IMG/VR virus record: IMGVR_UViG_3300005295_000038
Coordinates: 1-40,739 of that record
Strand: one strand, 5' to 3'
Length of the DNA: 40,739 bases
Origin: a virus
Shown: one piece after another, positions 8,755 through 40,739 of the stretch
Numbering within the stretch: position 1 is the first letter of the stretch
Layout of the letters: each line of letters starts with the position of its first letter
Program-made: the position numbers and the translations under genes
Notes under the pieces: model-generated
The model's input: only the letters and a program-made list of their open reading frames with translations
Database searches by the model: none
What the model was told of the DNA's origin: nothing

Positions 8755-8894
8755 TGGAGGTAAGGAGGTGACTGGAGGTATAGCTACCACCCTGCGTCTC
8801 TACGCGCGCGTGTCTCGCATGCGCGTAACCAAGAGAGGTTCCCCCACACAGGGGGGGTAGTAGCGTTACCTCCACTTACCTCCATACCTCCGTT
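8755..8894 (-). repeat. GGAGGTA-bounded dispersed repeat, copy A (intergenic)
   Basis: Read on the minus strand, this 140-nt element aligns end to end with 26574-26712 on the plus strand. The first 47 positions differ at one base. The middle ~45 are diverged, and about three quarters of the last 48 match. The ends carry inverted copies of TGGAGGTAAG, with several extra GGAGGT / ACCTCC units. Both copies lie in the sense direction of the surrounding genes. Confidence 0.85.
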
Positions 8895-8915
8895 TTCGAG
8901 GGCGTTACGCCACGG

Positions 8916-8942
8916 AAAAGCCCCGCACACGGCGTACGGGGC
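8916..8942 (-). terminator. Rho-independent terminator after the protease operon
   Basis: On the minus strand GCCCCG...CGGGGC (11-nt loop, 8920-8942) is followed by TTTT (8919-8916). It lies 18 nt beyond the stop of the 57-aa gene and would end the terminase-portal-protease transcript before the capsid gene. Confidence 0.7.
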
Positions 8943-8959: not shown

Positions 8960-9133
8960 CTACTTGGTGAGCTTCGGCACCACCTGACGGGTACCACCCA
9001 TAGGCGCCCTCTGTATCTTGATGCGCGCTTCACCCAGGGTTGCCACCCTCTCGGTCGATCCGTCGTGCTTGTACGTGATCAGGTACTCCGAGTTGGCAGG
9101 CTTCGCACCCCCGCCACACGACCCACACGCCAT
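8960..9133 (-). CDS. Small Cys/Gly-start head-region protein
   Basis: A 57-aa basic protein, MACGSCGGGAKPANSEYLITY, then an HDGSTERVATLGEARIKIQ segment. ATG 9133 overlaps the protease stop as TGATG, so it is translationally coupled. Small proteins with a CGxCGGG start and a 'Y.v...dG....f.t..eA' pattern occur in actinophage head operons between protease and capsid genes. The role is unknown. The two N-terminal cysteines could bind metal or cross-link. Confidence 0.65.
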   Translation of the reverse strand: MACGSCGGGAKPANSEYLITYKHDGSTERVATLGEARIKIQRAPMGGTRQVVPKLTK

Positions 9134-10620
9134 CACTCTGCTCCCTTCTGCGCCCACGCCCATCGCGCACGCGCGGTCTCACCGGCCGCCGGAGGTGTCT
9201 CCGCGGCTACCTCCGTTGCCTCCACAGGGGTCATACCCGCAGACGCGATCAGCGTGCGCTGCTGCTCCATGGAGAACGCCACCCTCGCCCGCGGCACCGG
9301 GAACCCCGGCGTGTTCACGCTGCACACCGCGATCAGCTCCAGGCTCCCGCCGATCCGGCGCCAGTCCCCGGACACCGGCGACGACATGAACGTCTGCCGC
9401 GCCTGCGCGCTTGCGCCCGGGAGGACCCAGCCGGCCACCCAGATGCCGTGCTCGTCCTCGCCCGCTACGACCCTGGCCACAGCCGCACCCGGATCGTCGT
9501 AGTGGCTCTGAGCCGCCTGGAAAGCGAGTTGCGGGTCAGCGTGCCGCGGCCCCGCCACGAGCGTCCCCACCGGGAGTACGGTCCCGTCCTGGGTCTGCTG
9601 CTCCGCCACGTGGAAGTACGCATACCCCGAGGCGCTGAACGGGGCGGTCACACAGCCCGGGAGCCCGACGTGGCACGTCTCCCACCCAGCAATGTGCCCG
9701 AACACGCGGCCCGTGTCCGACACCGTGATCGGTGTGAGCCGGTCCAGGTCCGGGCGCAGGAACCAGTCCTGCGGGGGCAGCGCTTCGGGGCGCGCCGAAG
9801 CGGCCAGGGCGAACGGTGCCTCCCGGTCCATGCGCTCGTACAGGCCACGCAGCACGCTTTTCATGCCGTCCGCATCGGCCGGCGCCTTGCCCGTCCGCGC
9901 ACCCTGCACAGCCGCCGCCGCCGCGAACACGCCCCTCGGGATGATGGTCAGCGTCCCGTCGACCACATCAGCGATCCCGAACCCGTACGCGCCCCGTGTC
10001 TCCGGATTGGCCTCGTCGTCCTTGCGCAGGAACGCGCGCGCGTACTTCGACCACGAGACGTTGTCGGGGCCGCCGGCCCACGCGAACACCCGGTCCGCCG
10101 CCCCGCTCCCGTCCCAGGCGTGCCCGGGATCGGCGATGGGCATGTCGGACCAGCCTGACGAGCGTACGGACGCCATCAGCATGGGCATGTCGTCCATGGG
10201 GTGGGCGGGCATCGGATCCAGCGTCAGGGATACATCGGCGAACGCAGGGATCGCTACCAGCGTCGCCCCCGCCACGCGCCATCGGGTGATGACGATGCGG
10301 TCCTGATCGTCCACCGTGTATTCGATGTCGTCCAGGTCCACGGAGGGGCCGACCACACCGGCCTCGATCTGCTCCACAGCCGCGGCGGGCGCTGAATCCA
10401 GCATCGACCCCATCGCTGTGACCATGCCGTCCCCGATGGACAGGGATTCGATGCGTGCCACGATCATGGCGCCCCCGTGCCCGTCGTCCGTCGCGGGCTG
10501 CCACATCATCGGCAGGGGCAGGCCACGCGACGAACCCCCGCCCGGGGCGATGATGCGCCCGTCCCCCGTCGGTACGCCGAGACGGGCCAGTACGGCGCTC
10601 CAGGTGCGGGTCTCAGCCAT
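9133..10620 (-). CDS. Capsid maturation protease (S78-like, three-part)
   Basis: A 495-aa protein. Residues ~1-140 look like the prohead-protease core, ending in the typical WRVAGATLVAIPAFADVSL. Residues ~165-270 (YARAFLRKDDEANPETRGAY; GTLTIIPRGVFAAAAAVQ) match the accessory segment often joined to this protease in actinophages. The C-terminal ~200 (HIAGWETCHVG; SGDWRRIGGSLELIAVCSVN; PGFPVPR) is a third module that also occurs in these proteins. It would cut scaffold domains from capsid subunits. I did not identify the catalytic triad with certainty. The start overlaps the 55-aa gene by 8 nt. A GGAGGTA-rich patch lies near 9200-9225. Confidence 0.75.
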   Translation of the reverse strand: MAETRTWSAVLARLGVPTGDGRIIAPGGGSSRGLPLPMMWQPATDDGHGGAMIVARIESLSIGDGMVTAMGSMLDSAPAAAVEQIEAGVVGPSVDLDDIEYTVDDQDRIVITRWRVAGATLVAIPAFADVSLTLDPMPAHPMDDMPMLMASVRSSGWSDMPIADPGHAWDGSGAADRVFAWAGGPDNVSWSKYARAFLRKDDEANPETRGAYGFGIADVVDGTLTIIPRGVFAAAAAVQGARTGKAPADADGMKSVLRGLYERMDREAPFALAASARPEALPPQDWFLRPDLDRLTPITVSDTGRVFGHIAGWETCHVGLPGCVTAPFSASGYAYFHVAEQQTQDGTVLPVGTLVAGPRHADPQLAFQAAQSHYDDPGAAVARVVAGEDEHGIWVAGWVLPGASAQARQTFMSSPVSGDWRRIGGSLELIAVCSVNTPGFPVPRARVAFSMEQQRTLIASAGMTPVEATEVAAETPPAAGETARARWAWAQKGAE

Positions 10621-10780: not shown

Positions 10781-11577
10781 CAGGGGTTCTGCCTTTCTGT
10801 CCAGTCGATCGTCTCACCCAGTACGACGGGGAGCATGGTGCACCGGCAGTTGATGACTTCGCCGGCGGGGCCGCGCGGGTCTCCGGGGAAGAGGAGGGTG
10901 CTGCTGCCGACTCGGAAGGGCTCGGACAGCAGTGTGCGCTGCTTGTCGGCGGCCGTGTGGGTGGGCCGTGTGCGTGCGTCCTCGGTGGCGATCCACTGCT
11001 TGAACGGGGCGGGGTCTCCGCGTTGTTCTGCCTCGAGTTGTGCCCCGCGGTAGACACCTGCGTTGACGGCGCCGAGGGTTTCGGTTCGGGCTACGGTGCG
11101 GGCACGGTTGCGCCAGTACGGCGTTGCTGACGCTGTGAGTACCTCTTGGACACTGCGTGTGACGTCGTCGAGGCTGATTCCGTCCGTTATGCCGCGTTCG
11201 ATCTCACGGACGATGAGCGCGTACACCTCGTCGGGGGTGTTGCTCATCCGGTTGCCAGCCGCGTTCAGGTAGGTGGACGTCCACGGGTCGGTGGGCGGGT
11301 CCCCGGCCCGGGTGACGCGCCGCCACGCGCCCGCGAGCACGCCCCCGACCTCGGGGAGGACTTCGGTGTCGACCTGCTCGGTCCAAAACGGGGTGTGGTC
11401 GGAGACGCGTGCGGGGTCGACGCCTCCGCCCTGGGTGACGGCGGGGCGGACACGATCGAGGAACCGGGTGAGGGAGCGGTACCAGGTGTTGCCGATGCGC
11501 TGCTCGCCCTCACGGATGAACGTCTGCGCGCGCAGCCGCTGGGGCAGGTGCGGGTCCTCGCCGATGGGCGTGGTCAC
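10780..11577 (-). CDS. MuF-like head morphogenesis protein
   Basis: A 265-aa protein. The C-terminal ~110 residues show the MuF pattern: ARTVARTETLGAVNAG, then KQWIATEDARTRPTHTAADKQ, then GEVINCRCTMLPVV. MuF-type proteins are minor head proteins that enter the procapsid with the portal. The N-terminal half is helical, with a SLTRFLDRVRPAV segment. GTG 11577 overlaps the portal stop as GTGA. Position directly after portal is canonical. Confidence 0.85.
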   Translation of the reverse strand: MTTPIGEDPHLPQRLRAQTFIREGEQRIGNTWYRSLTRFLDRVRPAVTQGGGVDPARVSDHTPFWTEQVDTEVLPEVGGVLAGAWRRVTRAGDPPTDPWTSTYLNAAGNRMSNTPDEVYALIVREIERGITDGISLDDVTRSVQEVLTASATPYWRNRARTVARTETLGAVNAGVYRGAQLEAEQRGDPAPFKQWIATEDARTRPTHTAADKQRTLLSEPFRVGSSTLLFPGDPRGPAGEVINCRCTMLPVVLGETIDWTERQNP

Positions 11578-13707: not shown

Positions 13708-15147
13708 CTATGATGCCGTGCGGCGTGCGGCCCGGTCACGTGCGGTCATGAGCGGGTGTACGACTCCGGCGCCCCGGCGCGCGGCCCCGTACGGGTTGTG
13801 GATGACGGACTCGGCCCGGTCGTGCTTCTTCATGAGGTGGGTGACGGCGTGGACCATGGCGTCAACCCGGTCGGGGCTGTTGTTGTCCTCCTCGGGGATC
13901 CACGTCGTGAGTTGGTCCTCGAGCTCGGGGAACGAGCCGACGTGGCAGACGCGTGCCTGTTCGTAGCGCATGGCGACGGGCTGCGCGCGCAGGCGCTTGC
14001 CCTGGGAGGCGTTGACGCGGCGCAGGGGCGGGTTGGAGCCGTCTGTGCGCAGCTCCTTCCATACGGCCTTGAGGACGTGCTCGATCCAGTCCTTGCCGCC
14101 GTTGTCCTCGACGACGAGGAGGGAGGCGCCCCACGTCTCCAGGAGCCCCCATGCGCGGCGGGCGGCCCGGTCCGGGGACAGTTTCTCGGACGCGTCGGCG
14201 AGGATGTAGTTCTTGCCGTCGGTCCCGCGGCCGGCGACGACGAGCCCGGTTTCATCTCCGGCGCCGGTGCCGGCGGGGTCCATGCCGACGACGATGTTGA
14301 CGAGCTCGGGTGCCTCTTGGACACGGCTTCCGTCGATGTGTCGGCGGGCGACGAGTGCACCGGGGAGGTCCTCGAGGACTTCGGCGTCGAGTTCCTGGCG
14401 GCCGAGCGTGGTGCCCTCGTATTTGGCGATGACCGCGCGCCGGAAGGTGGGGGCGAGGTTGTCGAGGTTGTCGTACGTGGACCCGCGGACGACGGCGGTC
14501 ATCGGGTCCTTGAGGAGCGCCTTGATGAGGGGGAGCGGCCGGGGTGTGGTGGTGACACAGATCTGGGGGTGCTCGCCGAGACGCATGCCGAGCTGGGCCA
14601 TGTCCCATGCGTGCTGGAGGTAGCGCCAGGCGGCAAGCTCGTCGAACCAACCGTAGTGGTGCTGTGGGCCTCGCAGACGGTCGGGCTCGTCTGCGGAGTA
14701 GCACATCTGGATGGCGCCGTTGGGGTAGGTGAGGCGCCTTTTCGAGGGCTCGTATACGGGCCGGAAGAGGGCGGGGGCGCACGCGAGGATGCCGGACTCG
14801 CCCTGGACGATGATGTCCCGGGTGTCGGCAGCGGTCGCACCGATGAGGGCCCCGCGTTCCTGGGTGCGCGCCTTTTCGAGGGCCCACTCGGCGCCGAGGC
14901 GGGTCTTGCCGAATCCGCGGCCGGCGAGGGCCAGCCAGACGTCGAACTCCCAGTCGGGGGCAAGCTGGGAGGCGCGCGCGTGGGCGCCCATGCGACCGGG
15001 GTGCGGCCGCCCGTCGCAATCCGGGCGGCCACAGCGCCACGGTACCTTACCGGCCTCGCGCTCCTGGACGGTCTGCTCGAGGGCGATTTCGAGCCGGGCC
15101 AGGTCCGCCGGCGACAGCCCCGCGAGTTCGGCCCGGCTGATCTTCAC
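13708..15147 (-). CDS. terL: Terminase large subunit (ATPase-nuclease)
   Basis: A 479-aa protein that drives DNA packaging. ATPase: Walker A LAGRGFGKT at ~74-82, Walker B WFDE at ~167-170, and a TTTPRPL coupling-type motif at ~199. Nuclease: GMDPAGTG with D290, VVEDNGGKDW, and DRVDAMVHA near the C-terminus, the three acidic positions of the RNase H-like fold. A CGRPDC segment at ~39-44 may bind metal. Start GTG 15147 overlaps the TerS stop (GTGA); sequence upstream of it in the same frame is shadow. Length is normal for HK97-type large terminases. Confidence 0.92.
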   Translation of the reverse strand: MKISRAELAGLSPADLARLEIALEQTVQEREAGKVPWRCGRPDCDGRPHPGRMGAHARASQLAPDWEFDVWLALAGRGFGKTRLGAEWALEKARTQERGALIGATAADTRDIIVQGESGILACAPALFRPVYEPSKRRLTYPNGAIQMCYSADEPDRLRGPQHHYGWFDELAAWRYLQHAWDMAQLGMRLGEHPQICVTTTPRPLPLIKALLKDPMTAVVRGSTYDNLDNLAPTFRRAVIAKYEGTTLGRQELDAEVLEDLPGALVARRHIDGSRVQEAPELVNIVVGMDPAGTGAGDETGLVVAGRGTDGKNYILADASEKLSPDRAARRAWGLLETWGASLLVVEDNGGKDWIEHVLKAVWKELRTDGSNPPLRRVNASQGKRLRAQPVAMRYEQARVCHVGSFPELEDQLTTWIPEEDNNSPDRVDAMVHAVTHLMKKHDRAESVIHNPYGAARRGAGVVHPLMTARDRAARRTAS

Positions 15148-17484: not shown

Positions 17485-17590
17485 GCGATCACGTCCCTGT
17501 GTCGTAGTTCGACCCAGGATACGCAGGAACCCCCGCCACGGTGTGTGACGGGGGTTCCTGCTTGGCTCAACCCTCGGGAGCGGGGCCAGT
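17485..17590 (-). terminator. Early-operon terminator and late-operon start region
   Basis: A perfect 13-bp hairpin (GCAGGAACCCCCG, 17523-17535, with CGGGGGTTCCTGC, 17549-17561, 13-nt loop) lies between the last early minus gene and the endolysin. It is well placed to end the early transcript. Just after it on the minus strand is TATCCT (17521-17516), the same -10-like hexamer seen before the plus-strand HTH gene. It might mark the late promoter, but no -35 is clear, as expected if late transcription needs a phage activator. Confidence 0.65.
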
Positions 17591-17662
17591 CTAGTGGCTG
17601 TGGGGCTTCATCCACCATCCGCACTTGGCGCAGTACTCGTAAGTCTCGTCGACGGCGGTCAT
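17591..17662 (-). CDS. Tiny Cys/His protein, 23 aa
   Basis: This possible micro-gene encodes MTAVDETYEYCAKCGWWMKP, then HSH and a stop. ATG 17662 overlaps the stop of the 34-aa gene as TGATG, the same coupling used throughout the operon. The CxxC and HxH at the end would suit a single zinc knuckle. It is the last reading frame before the terminator. Its size makes the call tentative. Confidence 0.4.
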   Translation of the reverse strand: MTAVDETYEYCAKCGWWMKPHSH

Positions 17663-17766
17663 CACTTGCCTCCGATGATCCGGATGAGCGCTACCACCAT
17701 GGTGAGGACGACGATGCTCGCGGCGGCGACTCCTACCCAGAGGAGTGCGGTGAGTGCGGTCTCCAT
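17662..17766 (-). CDS. Tiny membrane protein, 34 aa
   Basis: It encodes METALTALLWVGVAAASIVV, then LTMVVALIRIIGGK: one hydrophobic helix of about 25 residues with a short positively charged end. ATG 17766 overlaps the upstream stop (TGATG). It is probably a single-pass inner-membrane peptide of unknown role. It belongs to a run of five membrane or small proteins at the end of this early operon. Confidence 0.55.
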   Translation of the reverse strand: METALTALLWVGVAAASIVVLTMVVALIRIIGGK

Positions 17767-21214: not shown

Positions 21215-22909
21215 TCAGACGTAGTGGTCGACGATCTGCCCGAACTTCACCAGGTCAATCGCGTCCGCCACCTGGCCGCGGTCCATCCCCGCGACGTCGA
21301 TCCCGAGGCTGTATGCGTAGTCGAGCTGCGCCTGAGTCGGCTCGCTCTTCCGCCACCGGGCCGAGCGCTGCACCGAGAACTCCGAGTAGTCCTCCGCCAC
21401 AGCCTCACCCCACGCCATCGCCTCCCCGATGCTCAGGCCCAGGTACTGGGTCCGCTCCATTCGCTTGCCCTCGGTGAGGGTGCCGACGTCCCACAGACCG
21501 GACTGACCCAGGGTGGGCCACAGGAACACGCGGGTCTTGCCGCAGGCGATGAACAGGACGCCCTTGGGAGTCCTGTTCCACACCTTGTCCGAGGCGGCGA
21601 ACGCGTCCACGTCGCGCACCTTCAACTCGAAGGCGAGAGAGCCGGCCGGAACCAGCTTGTTCTGGGCCTCCGCCTCCCGTACGACGGCCTCTGCAAGAGA
21701 CTCACCCTCTTGCAGGGACCCGACCGCGCCGGGCTCCAGGTCGATCAGGGTCCGCAGCTTGTTCGAAGAGGCCCCGACGAGGTCCAGGACGAGTGCCTCC
21801 CGCTTGCCGGGCCAGGGCCGCAGCACGCGGCCTACCATCTGCGTGTACAGCGGCGCGGACTGGGTGGGCCGGGCAATGACGGCAACCTCCGCCCACGGGG
21901 CATCGAAGCCCTCGGTGAGGACCATGCAGCTGACGAGCACCTGGCAGCGGCCCTGACGGTAGCGTTCGTAAATCTCCCGCCGGTCGTCCCGGGGCGTGTT
22001 CCCGTCAACGGGGATCGCCACGATGCCCGCGTCCAGGAGCGCCTTGGAGGCCGCTACGGCCGTCTCCACGGTCGGCGTGAACACGATGCCCTGCCGGTCC
22101 CCAGCGTGCTCTTTGTAGGCGTTGGCGATGACGGTGTCGAACTTGGACTCCATCAGGGCGTCGCCGAGGGCTGCGGCCTGCCAGTCGCCCATGCCGACCT
22201 TGACGCCGGCAAGGGACAGGCTCTCCAGGTCGATTCGCTTCGTACGGACGTCGGTGAGGTGCCCTTTGGAGATCAGGTTCAGGATGGATCGCTGGTAAAC
22301 GACGTCGTCCCAGACCTTGCCGAGTCCCCGCTTGTCGCCGCGGGCCATGGTGGCCGTGACGCCGAGCTGGAGCGCGTTCGGGAACGCGTCGTAGATCTTG
22401 CCGTACGAGACGGCGGCAGCGTGGTGGCACTCGTCCGTGATGATCAGCCCGACGTCGCCGAGCCGGCCGCCGGGGCGGGTGCCGTTGGGTGCAACGGTGC
22501 CCTGGCGCTCCTTGAGGAGCTTGAGGCGCCGGGAGGAGGCCAGGGTCTGCACCGAGCAGACCATGACGTCCGCGTCGATGTCGTTGTCCCCGGCCTTGAC
22601 CTTGCCGACGTTGACGTCCGGCATGACGGAACGCAGTTTGGCGATCGCCTGATCGACGAGCTCGTCACGGTGGGCGAGGATGATGACGCGCTTGCCCACG
22701 TCCCACGCTCCAGGTATGACCTGTGTCGTACCGATCGGAATCACAGGGGTCTGAACCGCCATGAACTCCTTGACCAGGGCCGAGAACACCACGGTCTTCC
22801 CCGCGCCGGTCGGCAGCACGATCGCCGGCCGGCGCATGCCGTCGGCCCACGCCTTGAACACGGCGTCAATGGCCTCGCGCTGATAGTCGCGCAGCTTGAT
22901 CGCGGTCAC
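21215..22909 (-). CDS. Superfamily 2 DECH-box helicase
   Basis: A 564-aa protein. RDYQREAIDAVF (Q-like motif), Walker A LPTGAGKT (~32-39), DECH box ITDECHHAAA (~157-165), TATMARGDKRGLGK, and motif VI QMVGRVLRPWPGK identify an SF2 helicase of the RecG/RAD25-like DEAD/DECH group. A C-terminal extension (from ~455) with ARWRKSEPTQAQLDYAYSLG may bind DNA. It is likely to remodel forks or recombination intermediates. GTG 22909 overlaps the upstream stop (GTGA). It is cotranscribed with the regulator at 23617-23967. Confidence 0.85.
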   Translation of the reverse strand: MTAIKLRDYQREAIDAVFKAWADGMRRPAIVLPTGAGKTVVFSALVKEFMAVQTPVIPIGTTQVIPGAWDVGKRVIILAHRDELVDQAIAKLRSVMPDVNVGKVKAGDNDIDADVMVCSVQTLASSRRLKLLKERQGTVAPNGTRPGGRLGDVGLIITDECHHAAAVSYGKIYDAFPNALQLGVTATMARGDKRGLGKVWDDVVYQRSILNLISKGHLTDVRTKRIDLESLSLAGVKVGMGDWQAAALGDALMESKFDTVIANAYKEHAGDRQGIVFTPTVETAVAASKALLDAGIVAIPVDGNTPRDDRREIYERYRQGRCQVLVSCMVLTEGFDAPWAEVAVIARPTQSAPLYTQMVGRVLRPWPGKREALVLDLVGASSNKLRTLIDLEPGAVGSLQEGESLAEAVVREAEAQNKLVPAGSLAFELKVRDVDAFAASDKVWNRTPKGVLFIACGKTRVFLWPTLGQSGLWDVGTLTEGKRMERTQYLGLSIGEAMAWGEAVAEDYSEFSVQRSARWRKSEPTQAQLDYAYSLGIDVAGMDRGQVADAIDLVKFGQIVDHYV

Positions 22910-23082
22910 GGCAGCACCACCTCCCACGGTTCGTCCTCGCACGGCGGCTCCATGATGTAGATGTCGGCACCGACGGCCAGGTGGAAGCCGCCCTTGAAGG
23001 GCTGGATGGACACCTCGACTCCCGCCTGTTCGATTTCGTTCAGCAGCGCGCCGAGCTTGTCGGCCGCCTCCTGTTCGGTCAC
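22906..23082 (-). CDS. Small acidic early protein
   Basis: A 58-aa protein: TEQEAADKLGALLNEIEQAG (helix), then VEVSIQPFKGGFHLAVGADI (beta hairpin), then EPPCEDEPWEVVLP. GTG 23082 overlaps the upstream stop, and the end overlaps the helicase GTG. Acidic, with a possible helicase-partner role by coupling alone; family not recognised. Confidence 0.55.
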   Translation of the reverse strand: MTEQEAADKLGALLNEIEQAGVEVSIQPFKGGFHLAVGADIYIMEPPCEDEPWEVVLP

Positions 23083-23300
23083 TGGTCCCTCTCCTCGACG
23101 GTCTCGGACGCCCACCACATCGAGCTGATGTGGCATCCGGGGTGCTCCTGACAGAACCGGTGCGTGCACTGGTCCTCAAAGGCGCCCCGGACGATGTCGC
23201 TGTCGTGGGTCATCTCGTCCACCCGGGCCCGCATACACGGCGTACCGCCGGTCTCCGGCTCCCCGATGATGGTCAGCGTCCACAACTGTCTCGTGGTCAC
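23079..23300 (-). CDS. Small Cys/His-containing early protein
   Basis: A 73-aa protein: TTRQLWTLTIIGEPETGGTP, then CMRARVDEMTH and CTHRFCQEHPGCHISSMWW. The CTHRFCQEHPGCH cluster has the look of a zinc-binding loop. GTG 23300 overlaps the upstream stop (GTGA), and the end overlaps the next GTG. Function unknown. Confidence 0.55.
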   Translation of the reverse strand: MTTRQLWTLTIIGEPETGGTPCMRARVDEMTHDSDIVRGAFEDQCTHRFCQEHPGCHISSMWWASETVEERDQ

Positions 23301-24285: not shown

Positions 24286-24456
24286 ATGCAGTCACTCGCC
24301 GAGGGTGAAAGCCCCTCCATCACCGTGCGCATGCCGCGCACCACCATCGAACGCCTTGACCGGGAGTGCCGTACCTACGGCCTCTCCCGGTCGGACGTCG
24401 TCCGCCAGATCCTCGACGCCGCACTGGCCCGGTCCGAAGCGGGGGACTCCGAATGA
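24286..24456 (+). CDS. Ribbon-helix-helix (Arc/CopG-like) protein
   Basis: A 56-aa protein: SPSITVRMPRTTIERLDREC, then YGLSRSDVVRQILDAALAR. It has one beta strand and two helices, the standard RHH DNA-binding dimer. ATG 24286 was chosen over an upstream frame because the strand begins just after it; no strong SD is visible. Its stop overlaps the polymerase fusion start (ATGA), suggesting autoregulation coupled to replication. Confidence 0.7.
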   Translation: MQSLAEGESPSITVRMPRTTIERLDRECRTYGLSRSDVVRQILDAALARSEAGDSE

Positions 24457-27400
24457 CCCTCAGCTCAACCCACCGGCAGTACCTGAACGAGCACGCCGTC
24501 ACCGACGACGTCATCGAACGGCACGGCGTCCGCTCCGAGGGCGATGAGATCGTCTTCCCCTGGACCGACGGCGACCGCCACACCGAGCAGCGCCGGCCGT
24601 GGCCGGGCGGATCCGGGGTCTACTTCTGGGAGCCGGAAAAGGATCTCCACTTCTGGATGCTCCGCGACGCCGGGCCCGGTACCCCCGTGCTGCTAATCGA
24701 GGGCACGAAGCAGTCCCTGGCCGGCTCCGCGTACGCCCCCGAGGGCTTCACCGTGATGGGCATGGCCGGGTGCTGGGGTTGGTCCAAGGAGAGGCTGGGC
24801 CGGTTCAAGGACCGTGACGTGTACCTCTGCCTCGACGCTGACGCCGCGTCCAACCTGGACGTGTACGAAGCGGGCGACAAGCTCGGGGAAAAGGCACGGA
24901 GGTATGGGGTCAACCTCCGTTACCTCCGGATCCCCGGCTCCGGGTCCCAGGGCCTCGACGACTACCTCGCCTCCCTCGAGGAGGACGAGCGCGCGGAGAT
25001 CCTGGCGTACGAAATCCAGCACGCGCACTCCAAGCCCGCCGAGCGGCGGCCGACGAACCGCAAGCGCAAGATGGAATCGGACATGCCCGACCTCGGTGAC
25101 CGTGTCGGGGTGGCCATCAACCTGGACCGCAAGCAGGTTATCGACAAGATCACCGGTGCGCTCAAGGAGCGGCACGACGCTGTCGACCTGTTCAACTACG
25201 GTGACGTCCTGACCCGCGTACAGGGTCACGAGACCCAGCCGCTGGACCGGGACCGCTTCTACGCCATGCTCGCCGACGCCGTCGCGTGCTTCCGGTACAC
25301 GGAGGCAACGGACAAGCGACCGGCACTCTTCGAGCCCGCGTGGCCCGACCCGCCGTCGATCGGCGCGGTAATGAGCAAGTCCGAGGAGTTCTCGACGCTG
25401 ACGCGTGTCGTCCGGGTGCCGTTCCTGCGGCCGGACGGCTCCGTGTGCACGGCGCCCGGGTATGACCGAGAGACGACCACAGTCCTGGTCCCGTCCGGGC
25501 TCGGTGAGCTGCACGTGCCGGAGGAGCCGACCAAGGAGCAGGTCCGTCTGGCGGCCAAGTACCTCCTCTCGGAGTGGCTCGGGGACCTGCCGTTCAAGAC
25601 CGAAGCGGACCGCGCCAACGCCCTGGCGTGGGCTCTGACGCCGTTCATGCGCGGCCTGGTCCCCCTGGCGCCTCTGACAGTGGTCAGCGGCCTCCAGATG
25701 GGCGTCGGCAAGAACCTCCTCGCGGACTGCATCCACATCCTGGCGACCGGGGAGGCGGCCATGCCTCTGCCGTACGTCGCCTCGGAGGAGGAGATGCGCA
25801 AGCAGTTGACCGCCGCGTTCGCCGGCGGGGCCGAGATGTTCATCTTCGACGAGGCGCACGTCGTCGAGGGCGCACAGCTTGCCCGCGCAGTGACGTCGCT
25901 GACCTACGGGGACCGCGTACTCGGTGTCTCGCGGATCGCGAAGTTCCCGAATCAGGTGACGTGGGCCAGTCTCGGGAATCAGGTTCAGGTGAACGGGGAC
26001 ATGGCCCGGAGGGTCTACTTCGTCTACCTCCATCCCACCTCCGACAACGTCATCGACCGGGAGGCCAAGGAGTTCCGGCACCCGGACCTCAAGGCGTGGA
26101 CGAAGGAGAACCGCACGGACCTCGTGAGTGCCGCCCTGACGGTGCTGCGCGGGTGGGTTGTGGCCGGACGCCCGGCGTACTCCCGCGGGGCCTGCATGGG
26201 CTCGTTCGAGCCCTGGGACCGGATGCTGTCGGGTGTCCTGGCCTACGCGGGTCACCCGGCATTCCTGACGGACATGCGGGAGCGCCGGTCGGAGTCGGAC
26301 TACACGAACTCGTACTGGGAGTCGCACATCCACTGGCTTCACAGCCTGTTCGGGGACGAGGAGTTCACGACTCGGCAGGTTCAGGAGGCGGCCCTGCGGG
26401 ACCCGGCAGGGTACGAAGCACCTCCCGGGATGGAGGACGCGTCTGGGAAGGCGTTCACGCGGCAGCTCGGCCAGGGGTACGCAAAGCACCGCGACCGCAA
26501 CTACAACGGGGTGCGTCTGGTCAAGGCGGGCATGGGGCACAAAAGCACCATCAAGTGGCGAACCGTCTCGCAGAACGGAGGTATGGAGGTGAGTGGAGGT
26601 AACGCTACTACCCCCCCTGTTACGGGAGAACGTCTCTCAGACGTGCGTGACGCACACACGCGTGTAGAGGCGCAGGGTGGTGCGGTTCCCTCCACCTCCC
26701 TCCTTACCTCCAGTGCTCCGCTGGAGCCGCAGGGTTCGCTGACCTATGACGACTGGGGCAGCGTGGTGGGGCCTGCGGAGTACCCGGACCAGGAGCCGAC
26801 CGTCCTCGGGTTCGACCTGGAGACCGCATCGGTAGAGCAACTCTTCACCGGCGGCCACGAGGGACCGTACGTCCGGCTCCCCGGCGTCATCACGGAGGCG
26901 ACTGAGCGGATCATCCCCACAGTCCCGACGCTCCTGGCCACGCTCAACCGTGCCGACGTCATCCACGATCACAACGGGTTCGGGTTCGACCTGCTCGCGT
27001 TGGCGCGCCACTGCGGGGCCGACTACGCCGGGCTCGCGGCCAAGAACTGGGACACGCAGGTGGCCGAGTACGTCATCGACCCGCCCCTGTCCAAGGGCAT
27101 GCCGAGCGGGTACTACAGCCTGAACGGCCTCGCCGAGCGGTACGGGGTGCCGGCCAAGACCGACGACATCAAGCGGCTTGCGGCCAAGCACGGCGGGTTT
27201 GACCGCATCCCGCTCGACTCCCGCGAGTATCAGGACTACCTCCTCGGCGACCTCGCCACCCAGCACGGCGTGTACAAGGCGCAGCGCGCCCGTGCGACCG
27301 AACTGGGCCTGGACGAGTACCTGGCCCGGGAAATGCGTGTGGCGGCTCTTCAGAACACCTGCACGCTGAACGGCTGGAAGGTCGACACCGAACTCCTCGC

Positions 27401-28694
27401 CGAGCGTGTGAAGCACGAGGACGATCAGCGTCTCGCGGCCATTCAGGTTCTGCACACGGAGTACGGGGTGCCGTTGGCCCGACCGGACCGGTACAAGGTG
27501 AAGCCCCGAGCTGAGTGGCCTGAGGACTACCGCAACGAGCTGTCGGTGGCCCTGGTCCGCGAGGGGCTCCAGGAGGACCCGGAACGCTCCGTCGAGGCGG
27601 GGCTCGCCGTCCGCATCCCGGGGGAGCCGTACATCAAGCCGTGGGGGTCTCCGGCCGGCCGGGCCGCCATCGTTGCCGCCGGCAAGCGCGCGGGTGCGGA
27701 GCACTGGCCTCTTTCCGAGTCCGGTACCCCGCTCACGTCTGCCGACGCGCTCGGTGACAAGGAGTGGTACGACGCGGACCGCAAGGACAACGTCCCCGGC
27801 TTGCTGGAGGTGTACGGCCACCTGGACGGCGTTCGGGCGCTCGTGGACACAATCAGCCTGGCAACGGGGGCCCGCGCGAAGTATGCCGAGTTCGACAAGT
27901 GGCTGACTCCGGAGGGCCGCGTGCATCCGCTCGTGGGTGCCACACAGGGGTCGGGTCGGTGGGCGTACGTCAAGCCGTCCACGTCGACCACAGGGAAGCG
28001 TGGGCCCGCAAAGGCGGAGCGGGACGTTTTGGTTGCCGACGACGGGCACATGATGCTCACCTCGGACCACTCGCAGCTCGACGTTCGTACGGTTGCGGCT
28101 CTGTCGCAGGATCCCGAGCTGATCGGGATGCTCCAGCCGGACTCGGAGGACTATCACGAAGCGATGGCGGAGGTGTACTTCCGGGACCGGTCGCGCCGTT
28201 CGGACGCGAAGCCCATCAACCACGGCGTGAACTACGGGCAGGGGTTCCTGGCCATCGCCAAGCGCAACGGGCTCGATCCGGAGATGGTGCGCCGGGCCCT
28301 TATCGCCCGCGGTGACCGGTTCATCAAGCTGATGCAGTGGACCGAGGCTGTGCGTGCGCAGGCGGAAGCCGGCATGCTGCTCGACAACGGGTTCGGCCGG
28401 CCGATGCGGCCCTCGCCCGGGCGCGCGTACACGCAGGCGCCTGCGCTCATGGGCCAGGGTGCGTCCCGTGACGTGATGGCGGAGTCGATGCTGCGCCTGG
28501 ACCGCATCTCCGAGGGCCGCGTGCGCCCGTTCCTGCGGGGTGTCATCCACGATGAGATCGTGCTGTCGGTGCCGGAGGCGGACGTCGTCGAGTGGCAGGA
28601 GATGCTGCGGGAGGCGATGACCTGGGAGTGGCGCGGGGTCCCGATCCTGTGCGATGTCAGTGCTCCTGCCTACCGTTGGTCGGAGTGCGCCTAA
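24453..28694 (+). CDS. TOPRIM-helicase-exonuclease-family A DNA polymerase fusion
   Basis: A 1413-aa replication polyprotein. Residues ~1-170: TOPRIM domain (LLIEGTKQ with E83; YLCLDADAA with D128/D130), as in DUF3854-type primase-helicases. Residues ~400-530: D5-like/AAA+ ATPase (Walker A SGLQMGVGKN 412-421; Walker B MFIFDEAH; NGDMARR as arginine finger). Residues 709-755 are encoded by a dispersed repeat. Residues ~785-950: 3'-5' exonuclease (GFDLET; HDHNGFGFDLL). Residues ~1000-1413: PolA with motif A TSDHSQLDVR (D1205), motif B AKPINHGVNYG (K1253) and motif C VIHDEI (D1367). I saw no separate primase catalytic domain. ATG 24453 overlaps the RHH stop. Confidence 0.9.
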   Translation: MTLSSTHRQYLNEHAVTDDVIERHGVRSEGDEIVFPWTDGDRHTEQRRPWPGGSGVYFWEPEKDLHFWMLRDAGPGTPVLLIEGTKQSLAGSAYAPEGFTVMGMAGCWGWSKERLGRFKDRDVYLCLDADAASNLDVYEAGDKLGEKARRYGVNLRYLRIPGSGSQGLDDYLASLEEDERAEILAYEIQHAHSKPAERRPTNRKRKMESDMPDLGDRVGVAINLDRKQVIDKITGALKERHDAVDLFNYGDVLTRVQGHETQPLDRDRFYAMLADAVACFRYTEATDKRPALFEPAWPDPPSIGAVMSKSEEFSTLTRVVRVPFLRPDGSVCTAPGYDRETTTVLVPSGLGELHVPEEPTKEQVRLAAKYLLSEWLGDLPFKTEADRANALAWALTPFMRGLVPLAPLTVVSGLQMGVGKNLLADCIHILATGEAAMPLPYVASEEEMRKQLTAAFAGGAEMFIFDEAHVVEGAQLARAVTSLTYGDRVLGVSRIAKFPNQVTWASLGNQVQVNGDMARRVYFVYLHPTSDNVIDREAKEFRHPDLKAWTKENRTDLVSAALTVLRGWVVAGRPAYSRGACMGSFEPWDRMLSGVLAYAGHPAFLTDMRERRSESDYTNSYWESHIHWLHSLFGDEEFTTRQVQEAALRDPAGYEAPPGMEDASGKAFTRQLGQGYAKHRDRNYNGVRLVKAGMGHKSTIKWRTVSQNGGMEVSGGNATTPPVTGERLSDVRDAHTRVEAQGGAVPSTSLLTSSAPLEPQGSLTYDDWGSVVGPAEYPDQEPTVLGFDLETASVEQLFTGGHEGPYVRLPGVITEATERIIPTVPTLLATLNRADVIHDHNGFGFDLLALARHCGADYAGLAAKNWDTQVAEYVIDPPLSKGMPSGYYSLNGLAERYGVPAKTDDIKRLAAKHGGFDRIPLDSREYQDYLLGDLATQHGVYKAQRARATELGLDEYLAREMRVAALQNTCTLNGWKVDTELLAERVKHEDDQRLAAIQVLHTEYGVPLARPDRYKVKPRAEWPEDYRNELSVALVREGLQEDPERSVEAGLAVRIPGEPYIKPWGSPAGRAAIVAAGKRAGAEHWPLSESGTPLTSADALGDKEWYDADRKDNVPGLLEVYGHLDGVRALVDTISLATGARAKYAEFDKWLTPEGRVHPLVGATQGSGRWAYVKPSTSTTGKRGPAKAERDVLVADDGHMMLTSDHSQLDVRTVAALSQDPELIGMLQPDSEDYHEAMAEVYFRDRSRRSDAKPINHGVNYGQGFLAIAKRNGLDPEMVRRALIARGDRFIKLMQWTEAVRAQAEAGMLLDNGFGRPMRPSPGRAYTQAPALMGQGASRDVMAESMLRLDRISEGRVRPFLRGVIHDEIVLSVPEADVVEWQEMLREAMTWEWRGVPILCDVSAPAYRWSECA
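24896..24930 (+). repeat. Short GGAGGTA/TACCTCC relic
   Basis: ACGGAGGTATGG followed by AACCTCC and TTACCTCC within 35 nt reproduces both ends of the ~140-nt dispersed repeat with almost no interior. It is in frame inside the TOPRIM-domain end of the fusion gene. Confidence 0.4.
26574..26712 (+). repeat. GGAGGTA-bounded dispersed repeat, copy B (in coding sequence)
   Basis: This 139-nt element aligns with the minus strand of 8755-8894. It is translated in frame as part of the fusion protein (about residues 708-754: MEVSGGNATTPPV, then HTRVEAQGGAVPSTSLLTS) and sits exactly between the ATPase and exonuclease/polymerase halves. Copy A is one base longer, so the same peptide frame is broken there. 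Confidence 0.85.
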
Positions 28695-29729: not shown

Positions 29730-29766
29730 AGAGGGCCGCCCCCAGATGAGTTGGGGGCGGCCCTCT
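29730..29766 (+). terminator. Strong intrinsic-type hairpin
   Basis: A perfect 15-bp stem (AGAGGGCCGCCCCCA / TGGGGGCGGCCCTCT) with a 7-nt loop follows the 54-aa gene by a few bases. It ends the methyltransferase transcript or attenuates entry into the exonuclease gene. Confidence 0.85.
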
Positions 29767-29786
29767 TCGATCAGGATAGAGGAGAG

Positions 29787-31328
29787 ATGAGCACACACAC
29801 CATCATCTGCAACCCCTGTGGCCAGGAGATCCGGGTTCGCAAGGACGGGGCGCTCTACAAGCACAGCGTCGGCGAGCAGCCGTGCGACGGCGTGCCGGCC
29901 CAGATTCTCTCGGACCCCCTTCCGTCCGTCGGACCCTGGATCGGGGCTCTTGACGCCGGGCGGTGCAGCGACTGTGAGGGGCGGTACGCCGAAGGCGACC
30001 GGGTCCGCAGTGTCGGCGAGCACGGCATGCAGTGCGAGGCCTGTGGGGACGACCCGGACGCGGGCGAACTCGCCTCCAAACTGCACGCCGAGTACCCCGA
30101 CTCCGAGGTGACGGTCCTCCCCGGCGGCGGGGCCATGGTTCTCCCGAAGGGGTTGGCACTCCCGGAGGCCGACGTCATCGTTGTCACCCCCGACATGTTC
30201 GTCGACCCGACCCCGCCGTCCGCCGCGGTCGCCGTGTTCGAGGACCCGACTCCGCCGGTCGTCGTCGAACCCGAGCTGAACGTCTCCGGCCAGCCGAAGG
30301 CGCGGTACGAGTGGCGCGGCAACGTCAACATGGGCTACCAGGTCACCGACCCGGCCACCGGGGACTTCCGCCGGTACAAGAACGGCAACGCGCGGGGGTG
30401 GACGCGCGCGACGACGTTCAACAAGGCGGCGACCGACTCGAAGGCGATTTACGACTGGGGCAAGCGCAACGTCGTCATCGGCGCGGCCAAGCTGCCGGCC
30501 CTGCTTGCAGGCGCCGTGGGCATGACCCACGAAAGCGACCGTGATGCGCTCATGGGGCTCGTGGCCGAGTTCGAGGACGCGGCAGGGGCCAACGAAGCAT
30601 CCGACCTGGGGACCAAGCTGCATGTGTTCACCGAGTTGATGGACGCCGGGCTCAGGACGTGGCAGGACGCGCCGGAGCAGTACCAGGCACAGTTGCGGCT
30701 GTACTCCGAGACCCTCGCGGCGGCAGGCCTGGAACCGGTCCCGGGCCTGATCGAGCGGACGACCTGCATTCAGGAGTTCGGCGGGGTCGTCGGCACGTTC
30801 GACCGCGTGTTCTACCACCGGCCCTCGGGTCAGTACATCCCCGGGGACTTGAAGACCGGCAAGACGATGCAGTACGCCATGAACGAGACCGAGACCCAGT
30901 TGTGGATCTACGCCCACGGGGTGAACCAGAACGGCATCTACGACTGGAACACGGACACGTGGCACGCCCTGGACGCTCCGGTCTCGGAGACGAACGGCGT
31001 CATCATCCACATGCCGGTCAAGGGCAAGCTTGCCGGCGGCGTGTACCTGGACCACGCAGACCTCGAGGCAGGCCGGGAGCACGCCGAGCTGTGCCACCGA
31101 AACCGGACTCAGCCGAAGTCCAAGGTGCGCCCGTGGTCACCCCCGCCCACGCGCCTGGGTGCCCCTGAGACGCTCCCGGAGACGGATTGGCAGACCCAGT
31201 TCGAGAACGTGGCCAGCGTGGACGCTGCGGGCGCCCTGTGGGAGGCCGCGCGCCGGTGCGGGGTGCCGCCCATGGAGCTCCAGCGGCTGGTCCAGATCGC
31301 ACAGACAGCACTTCGTGTCAGGGGTTGA
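29787..31328 (+). CDS. PD-(D/E)XK exonuclease with N-terminal zinc fingers
   Basis: A 513-aa protein. N-terminal ~100 residues: CNPCGQ, then CSDCEGRY and CEACGDD, i.e. zinc-ribbon-like pairs. C-terminal half: RecB/Cas4-type nuclease with GGVVGTFDRVF (D339), GDLKTGK (D354-x-K356) and TETQLWIYAHGV (Q motif). It would resect DNA ends for recombination or replication. This type of exonuclease commonly neighbours SSB-like genes in actinophages, as here. ATG 29787 has AGAGGAG just upstream; a start 12 codons earlier falls in the terminator arm and is rejected. Its stop overlaps the -35 of the next promoter. Confidence 0.85.
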   Translation: MSTHTIICNPCGQEIRVRKDGALYKHSVGEQPCDGVPAQILSDPLPSVGPWIGALDAGRCSDCEGRYAEGDRVRSVGEHGMQCEACGDDPDAGELASKLHAEYPDSEVTVLPGGGAMVLPKGLALPEADVIVVTPDMFVDPTPPSAAVAVFEDPTPPVVVEPELNVSGQPKARYEWRGNVNMGYQVTDPATGDFRRYKNGNARGWTRATTFNKAATDSKAIYDWGKRNVVIGAAKLPALLAGAVGMTHESDRDALMGLVAEFEDAAGANEASDLGTKLHVFTELMDAGLRTWQDAPEQYQAQLRLYSETLAAAGLEPVPGLIERTTCIQEFGGVVGTFDRVFYHRPSGQYIPGDLKTGKTMQYAMNETETQLWIYAHGVNQNGIYDWNTDTWHALDAPVSETNGVIIHMPVKGKLAGGVYLDHADLEAGREHAELCHRNRTQPKSKVRPWSPPPTRLGAPETLPETDWQTQFENVASVDAAGALWEAARRCGVPPMELQRLVQIAQTALRVRG

Positions 31329-36093: not shown

Positions 36094-36701
36094 CAGGACA
36101 CCGCGTTCCAGACGACGCCGGAGGAGTTCGTCCGGGCTCCCATGGTGACGGATGCCGGGAGTGACGTCTGCGCGGCCGGCCCCAGCGTGTACCGGGCGAC
36201 GGCCGCCGCCAGGTTGGCGTTCACGAGGTCCGCCTGCACACCGACGTTCGAAGAGACCGCGAACGAGAGAGACGTGCCGTTGTACAGCGTCGCCATCCAC
36301 ACTGCGGTGTTCGCGGCGACGACGTACGGTGCGACGAGGGGGATGATCTTGAGCCCGGTCGTTGTCCAGTTCGCAGACTGGTCCAGCGACACGGCCACCC
36401 GCGTGCCGGCCGAGTCGTACAGACCGACGAAGCACTGGTTCGCGGTGAGGGCGACGCCGGCGGCCGATACGTACGTCGCCACGTTCGTGATGGTGTACGT
36501 CTCGGGGAGCGGCGGGAGCTTCACCATGCGCACGGTTCCCGAGGTCGGGTTGGCCGAAGCAGCGCACAGCGCCGGATCCTGACTCCAGTTGATGAACCCG
36601 TGGTCGTTGGGCACCATCGACGCACTCATCAGGTGCCGCAGCGCCAGGTTCAGCGGGTTGTCCCACAGCGTCTGTCCATGGGTGGGGAGTGTGATTCCCA
36701 T
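36093..36701 (-). CDS. Minor tail protein, jelly-roll
   Basis: A 202-aa protein. PTHGQTLWDNPLNLALRHLM at the N-terminus, then a beta-sandwich about 70-150 with TANQCFVGLYDSAGTRVAVS and LVAPYVVAANTAVWMATLYN. The 'VGLYDSAG' strand pair matches the RMGLYASDG segment of the fibre-cassette protein at 3482-4153, suggesting a shared carbohydrate-binding fold used at two sites of the tail. SD TAGGAGA lies upstream of ATG 36701. Confidence 0.6.
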   Translation of the reverse strand: MGITLPTHGQTLWDNPLNLALRHLMSASMVPNDHGFINWSQDPALCAASANPTSGTVRMVKLPPLPETYTITNVATYVSAAGVALTANQCFVGLYDSAGTRVAVSLDQSANWTTTGLKIIPLVAPYVVAANTAVWMATLYNGTSLSFAVSSNVGVQADLVNANLAAAVARYTLGPAAQTSLPASVTMGARTNSSGVVWNAVS

Positions 36702-40233: not shown

Positions 40234-40739
40234 TCACCCCATCATCTTCGCGATGGCGTCCTGAATGGCCGCCGGGTCGTCACCCTCATCATCCCACTCG
40301 TCCTCGTACCCGGCAGGGGGCACCGACAGTTGGAAGTCGAACTTCAAGCGCCCTTTCTCGTCCTGGCCCTTGACGCACAAGGCGTACGTGGCCGCGCACC
40401 ACTCTCCGATCGAACGGGTCCACGGATCGACACCGGCCAGCGTGAGCCGGCCCAGGACATCCGGTGAGGCCGACGTAGACATCAGACGGCCGGCGGCCCA
40501 CCATCGCCGGTCTGTGGCGTGCTCCAGCAGCCGCAGCGACTCAGCGCGCAGGGCCGCCGCGGCCCCATGCATCCGCATCACCTCGTCGACGAGCCGTTCC
40601 CGGTCCGCTTCGGCTGCCAGGCGGGAGGCCACGCTGTGGATGTAAGGGAGGTTCTGCATCCAGACGGCGGCCGGGTGCCACGGCACCATGACCCTGCACC
40701 CGCCGACGTACACGGCAACCGGTTCGCGGCTGAACGGGG
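40234..40739 (-). CDS. Tail assembly chaperone, second gene (T-like), main part
   Basis: In this window the frame is open to the right edge. On the circle it continues to the ATG at 89, giving about 177 residues in all. Features: RVMVPWHPAAVWMQNLPYIH, RLAAEADRERLVDEVMRMHG, WWAAGRLMSTSASPDVLGRL and an acidic end (YEDEWDDEGDDPAAIQDAIA). It lies immediately before the tape measure gene and out of frame with the first chaperone, as expected for the second (GT) product, although the frame relation is +1/-2 rather than the usual -1. It is called by context. Confidence 0.65.
   Translation of the reverse strand, partial: PFSREPVAVYVGGCRVMVPWHPAAVWMQNLPYIHSVASRLAAEADRERLVDEVMRMHGAAAALRAESLRLLEHATDRRWWAAGRLMSTSASPDVLGRLTLAGVDPWTRSIGEWCAATYALCVKGQDEKGRLKFDFQLSVPPAGYEDEWDDEGDDPAAIQDAIAKMMG
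40670..40739. repeat. Terminal direct repeat, right copy
   Basis: Identical to bases 1-70. See the left copy for interpretation as contig closure. Confidence 0.95.

Follow-up and report, generated by a model that had tools for sequence, protein, structure and literature searches.

The question raised by this locus is whether a single phage gene encodes most of a replisome and, if so, what occupies the joint between its two halves. The window, meaning the whole stretch of 40,739 nucleotides analyzed here (IMG/VR record IMGVR_UViG_3300005295_000038), is probably a complete genome, since its ends are identical over 70 nt. The minus strand carries most of the structural genes (head, portal, terminase and tail), and the plus strand carries the replication region. 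The PHROG matches of the open reading frame at 9133–10620 (−) were of mixed kinds (portal, head maturation protease and unknown), and it perhaps encodes a fused head protein. The earlier note saw no replicative helicase or primase gene apart from the fused gene and an SF2 helicase, and the SF2 gene was indeed the only separate helicase recognized. The features that frame the locus are:

1–70: terminal direct repeat, identical to 40670–40739
21215–23179 (−): SF2 helicase, RadD/YejH-like
24453–28694 (+): fused primase–helicase–exonuclease–polymerase gene, 1413 aa, no internal stop
29751–31328 (+): exonuclease (phrog_466), in the replication region

The fused gene begins with an ATG at 24453 and its stop codon ends at 28694; translation showed the frame to be open throughout, confirming the claim of one uninterrupted frame of 1413 codons. 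Its start aligns with the MTLS start of the closest relative, L009. A scan of viral contigs with the 1413-aa protein as a single sequence gave no match, and a search of genome contigs gave one weak, partial match. A two-sequence profile search of IMG/VR yielded 41 relatives, several of them on partial contigs and one of them (L020) apparently the Actinoplanes phage phiAsp2. The fusion is present in a single frame in 34 of the 41, L009 included. In five (L033, L037, L038, L041 and L047) the halves are separated, always at the same point: in L037 a stop precedes a polymerase-like start, and in the other four the polymerase is encoded by its own gene downstream. In L032 and L036, the gene runs off the end of the contig.

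We considered whether misassembly or a recent oddity could account for the fusion, as would be expected if relatives were always split at this point. The five split relatives could be read in this way, but the 34 fused relatives were assembled independently, and Pas55 of phiAsp2 is likewise annotated as one gene. This explanation is thus refuted, and its probability is negligible. The fusion is real and conserved. In a tree of the relatives, in which the deep branches are long and their order uncertain, fused and split forms occur as sisters (L045/L038 and L029/L047), implying that joining or separation has been recurrent in the family. In the sister phages L045 and L038, the polymerase of L038 is separate, with a TGATG overlap, and L045 reads through in frame. 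The exonuclease region of L045 has diverged, and the pair is close to a snapshot of a fusion or fission event.

The protein was divided into the following parts:

24453–25064 (+): TOPRIM primase catalytic core, DUF3854-like (aa 1–204; DnaG 5guj, Z 15.4; T7 gp4, Z 14.9)
25092–26315 (+): predicted D5/SF3-type AAA+ helicase (aa 214–621; SaPI5 Rep 7ola, Z 12.2; MPXV E5, Z 11.8)
26370–26567 (+): helix–helix–strand segment in the AF2 secondary structure (aa 640–705; SaPI5 Rep 7om0 aligns through residue 698)
26775–28694 (+): 3′–5′ exonuclease and family A polymerase (aa 775–1413; Klenow, Z 32.8)

AlphaFold models of the two halves (pLDDT 78 and 85) were compared with solved structures, and the DnaG/T7 gp4, D5/SaPI5 Rep and Klenow folds were matched. 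A PDB sequence search with the N-terminal half gave no credible match. Pfam matched DUF3854 over the TOPRIM region, and the catalytic Glu and DxD proposed in the earlier note (E83, D128 and D130) do not vary across 14 N-terminal halves and are set in a DnaG-like core. Residue 1 aligns with residue ≈129 of DnaG and ≈76 of gp4, and comparison of the model with these structures showed that the zinc-binding domain of DnaG and T7 gp4 is absent from the ORF. The TOPRIM core thus stands at the very start of the protein, whose ability to make primers cannot be taken for granted.

Residues 214–621 matched helicases of the D5/SF3 type (SaPI5 Rep, monkeypox E5, PriRep1 and NrS-1) with Z-scores of 9–12. 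The alignment and model showed an AAA+ fold with both of the Walker motifs that had been predicted from the sequence. The P-loop (aa 413–421, 25689–25715) reads GLQMGVGKN, in which Asn, invariant in the 14 sequences compared, replaces the usual Ser/Thr; Walker B is FIFDE (aa 463–467). The predicted fold makes the assignment to the D5/SF3-type AAA+ class firm, but not the details, because of poorly predicted stretches in the model. In the same model, residues 640–705 may form a winged-helix DNA-binding domain.

The C-terminal half matched Klenow over 534 residues, and Pfam matched DNA_pol_A at 1.1e-23. The exonuclease and three polymerase motifs listed in the earlier note are in place: D788, E790, D846, Y929 and D933 in the exonuclease, and D1205, R1249/K1253 and H1366-D1367-E1368 in the polymerase, are all invariant or nearly so. 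The exonuclease carboxylates, motifs A, B and C and the Klenow fold together identify a proofreading family A polymerase. In characterized enzymes, sugar discrimination and the handling of nucleotides depend on the positions of Klenow E710 (the steric gate) and F762, and Phe, Tyr or Leu is the usual residue described at the latter in phage PolA. Here, the two positions are occupied by Asp1210 and His1257, both invariant in 15 sequences. An internal translation start that would release a free polymerase was considered, and the window linker does have an in-frame GTG at 26589 with a spaced GGAGG, but such starts occur in only six of 34 linkers, and this was rejected as a family feature.

The domain reading of the earlier note is thus upheld by conserved residues and fold matches. 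The peculiarity that it attached to the fusion, on the grounds that most phages encode helicase–primase and polymerase separately, is weakened by precedents. The PHROG 17 profile already covers both halves of the protein. Pas55 of phiAsp2 (AY576796) has the same fused order, with ≈39% identity over 92%, and a putative helicase gene lies near it, as in the window; it differs in that its linker is acidic, Pro-rich and without the DNA element described below, and it is annotated only as a putative DNA polymerase. The Streptomyces phages phiSAJS1, YDN12 and Mischief19 (Woodruffvirus and relatives) encode a TOPRIM primase–helicase and, immediately downstream, a related PolA, but as two genes, and their helicase part is matched by other PHROG families. 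The helicase of the apicomplexan PfPREX is of the T7/Twinkle type, not D5/SF3. PfPREX carries primase, helicase, exonuclease and family A polymerase in one polypeptide (PMC8113025), but is an organelle enzyme that is reported to be processed. The TOSV/Pyrovirus PolA polyprotein joins a helicase/primase-like region to an exonuclease and PolA, fused in some members and split in others (PMC7689252). Its N-terminal part is DUF927, unlike that of the window protein; DUF927 had no match at E ≤ 1 in the 1413-aa protein or the 14 N-terminal halves. Fusion of a primase/helicase with PolA is therefore already known and not new.

The most unusual feature of the locus, which was missed in the earlier note, is a duplicated dyad of short iterons in the DNA of the linker:

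26577–26712 (+): linker DNA dyad within coding sequence, ≈137 bp, with inverted GGAGGTA iterons; candidate origin
8755–8892 (−): second copy of the dyad, noncoding and flanked by a small ORF and the gene for the major head protein

In the linker, GGAGGT occurs at 26577, 26585 and 26595, and ACCTCC at 26694 and 26706. When the window was searched against its own genome, the linker region was matched again at 8790–8918 on the minus strand, and a repeat finder reported inverted copies at 26555–26712 and 8755–8913. In both copies, iterons face inverted iterons across roughly 90 bp. The copy at 8755–8892 is noncoding, and a TAG interrupts the linker reading frame within it, so that what the two have in common is a nucleic acid feature and not a peptide. 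Folded with DNA parameters, the hairpins had z-scores of −4.5 (linker copy) and −7.1 (second copy) relative to shuffles. In a ranking by a simple ungapped dyad score, the noncoding copy was first and the linker copy fifth in the window genome. The two copies are only the fifth and seventh lowest-GC windows, and the center of the window dyad is not AT-rich. The GC-skew profile of the window had no clear switch at either copy.

The L009 genome (G001) has the same arrangement, with a linker copy at 13984–14142 (+) and a second copy, a nearly perfect palindrome, at 36511–36680 (−). These are the top two dyads of that genome and its two lowest-GC 150-bp windows. The copies are ≈22.5 kb apart in L009 and ≈22.9 kb apart around the circle of the window, and the second copy precedes the head gene in both. 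At residues identical between the window and L009, the same codon is used in 86% of cases in aa 701–755, compared to 59% in aa 1–700 and 53% in aa 756–1413. Because codon identity is also high in aa ≈516–545, shared codons do not settle the matter by themselves; the argument for a DNA element is carried by the dyad, its duplicate and a recoding test, in which random synonymous recoding reached the dyad in none of 500 trials for the window and none of 500 for L009.

Terminal inverted repeats and two dispersed copies would also suit a small, MITE-like mobile repeat that had inserted in the linker and in the intergenic region. However, when 2.9 million viral contigs were scanned for the pattern, the window phage and L009 alone carried the element itself (a looser iteron pattern matched two other contigs, which lacked the element), and blastn against phage and plasmid records found no relative. 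The copies also occupy equivalent positions in the two genomes, and the same architecture is built from different repeats in other lineages, making insertion of a mobile repeat very improbable.

These other lineages comprise seven further relatives, on several deep branches, in which inverted iterons with other sequences occupy the linker site. The first dyads were spotted by eye, and all fused relatives were scanned afterwards. The iterons at the linker site are GGGGGGAAC in L029, GGGGGGACC in L014 and L048, GGGGGTAAC in L047, GGGGGGATAG in L033 and, by eye, GAGGGTCTT in L037; those of L041 are of the GGAGGGACC type, three facing three with 9-nt spacing. Recoding reached the dyad in none of 300 trials each for L029, L041, L047 and L033, a clear result, and A-tracts lie between the iterons in these same four. 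The test was weak for L014 (10/300) and L048 (6/300), where repetitive Gly/Pro peptides favor dyads. Second copies were found in the genomes of L048 (G005; 86% over 153 bp, 20 kb away) and L041 (79% over 164 bp, at a distance of 14.7 kb and shortly before an ATG); none was found in L029, L014 and L047, some of which are partial contigs. A third iteron dyad in the L048 genome, at 17490–17740 (≈22.0–22.3 kb of the contig), is partial, and its center is very AT-rich. In the split members, the dyad lies in the C-terminal coding tail of the primase–helicase gene, indicating that it goes with the primase–helicase module rather than with the fusion itself.

Iterated short sites at two places, one of them upstream of the head genes, would suit a regulator, and the dyad could be an operator or another protein-binding site (for a repressor, a regulator, partition or packaging) unrelated to the initiation of replication. 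The place at the end of the primase–helicase coding sequence is, however, constant across several deep lineages with differing repeat sequences, which points to the replication protein as the partner and renders such a role rather improbable.

Because the four second copies all seem to lie in the transcribed sense, the strongest competing reading is an RNA element. On this view, the replisome mRNA and the leader of a late-gene mRNA would each contain a long hairpin with control over processing, stability or translation. Both window copies fold far better than shuffles, the second copies lie upstream of structural genes, and GGAGG resembles a ribosome-binding site. Short direct repeats are not needed for a hairpin alone, however, and Rfam gave no match to the element. 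The 8–10-nt spacing of short iterons in both arms, the A-tract centers of several lineages and the association with the primase–helicase gene are all origin-like, and we consider an RNA role unlikely.

The clade of phiAsp2 differs. About 27 of its members had no dyad in the linker, which is mostly acidic; either the origin has moved in this clade or the element has another role. An acidic motif, PAPENEHAEARGPAPEDTDGEGHDEVRG, recurs amid the otherwise different linkers of this clade (loci among L010–L049), and possibly binds a protein. The top dyad of phiAsp2 (33.8 kb) was considered as an iteron dyad and rejected, being a promoter-like divergent element common to G005. This palindrome, TTGACACTT...TGTAATGTT, is found at ≈33.74–33.85 kb in phiAsp2 and ≈43.5–43.6 kb in the L048 contig, and is the strongest dyad in both genomes.

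The reading that we favor is that the dyad is a replication origin inside the replisome gene, accompanied by a second origin-like site; as judged from the facing iterons, the D5/SF3-type helicase gene and the duplicate in late noncoding DNA, all of which resemble phage and satellite origins, this is fairly probable. For the dyad itself, origin function seems rather likely on the same analysis. In cultured phiSAJS1 (L004), iteron-like TTCCCGCGAA repeats form inverted groups at 10794–11106, directly upstream of the primase–helicase gene, and this cluster is a possible origin of that relative. The SaPI ori/Rep and P4 alpha/ori/crr systems pair a D5/SF3-type helicase initiator with iterons, and their origins lie outside coding sequence. 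To our knowledge, neither SaPI Rep nor P4 alpha carries a fused polymerase. SaPI5 Rep, a structural match of the AAA+ half, comes from a phage satellite, and SaPI replication initiators have helicase activity (PMC7145576).

The closest described arrangement is that of SPP1, in which gene 38 contains oriL and the late region contains oriR (PMC6316719). The likeness lies in a repeat-bearing origin within the initiator gene and a second in late noncoding DNA. A repeat site in the gene with a second, noncoding copy is found in both the window and the L009 genome, and a linker or tail copy with a distant copy also occurs in G005 and G009. SPP1 differs in having a separate initiator (gp38), a loader, a DnaB-type helicase and the host polymerase. 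We infer that the window gene is the initiator in an SPP1-like arrangement.

In the mechanism that we propose, one polypeptide would supply most of an actinophage-type replisome (a TOPRIM core, a D5/SF3-type helicase and a proofreading family A polymerase), and the DNA of its interdomain linker would double as the origin, with short iterons arrayed in opposite orientations on either side of a central region. Perhaps via the segment that immediately precedes the linker, the helicase half would bind the iterons, melt the center of the dyad and load as a ring, after which the tethered polymerase would synthesize from primers. The fusion would thereby couple unwinding, proofreading and synthesis physically, as the earlier note suggested. 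The noncoding late-gene copy would act as a second origin or as a fork-arrest site, in the manner of oriL and oriR in SPP1. More tentatively, with the origin in the joint of a one-polypeptide replisome, the same protein might both recognize the DNA and run the fork, iteron sequence and binding domain might co-evolve, and the late copy might allow a two-origin switch of replication mode.

If the dyad is an origin, this gene would constitute a minimal system that provides both an enzyme and its target site, and a compact model for the handover from an SF3-type helicase to a tethered polymerase. It would offer a directly testable origin of about 160 bp with a single protein, and would account for a linker that evolves under DNA rather than protein constraint. 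The same dyads would then serve as a signature by which origins could be recognized in the sequences of uncultured phages.
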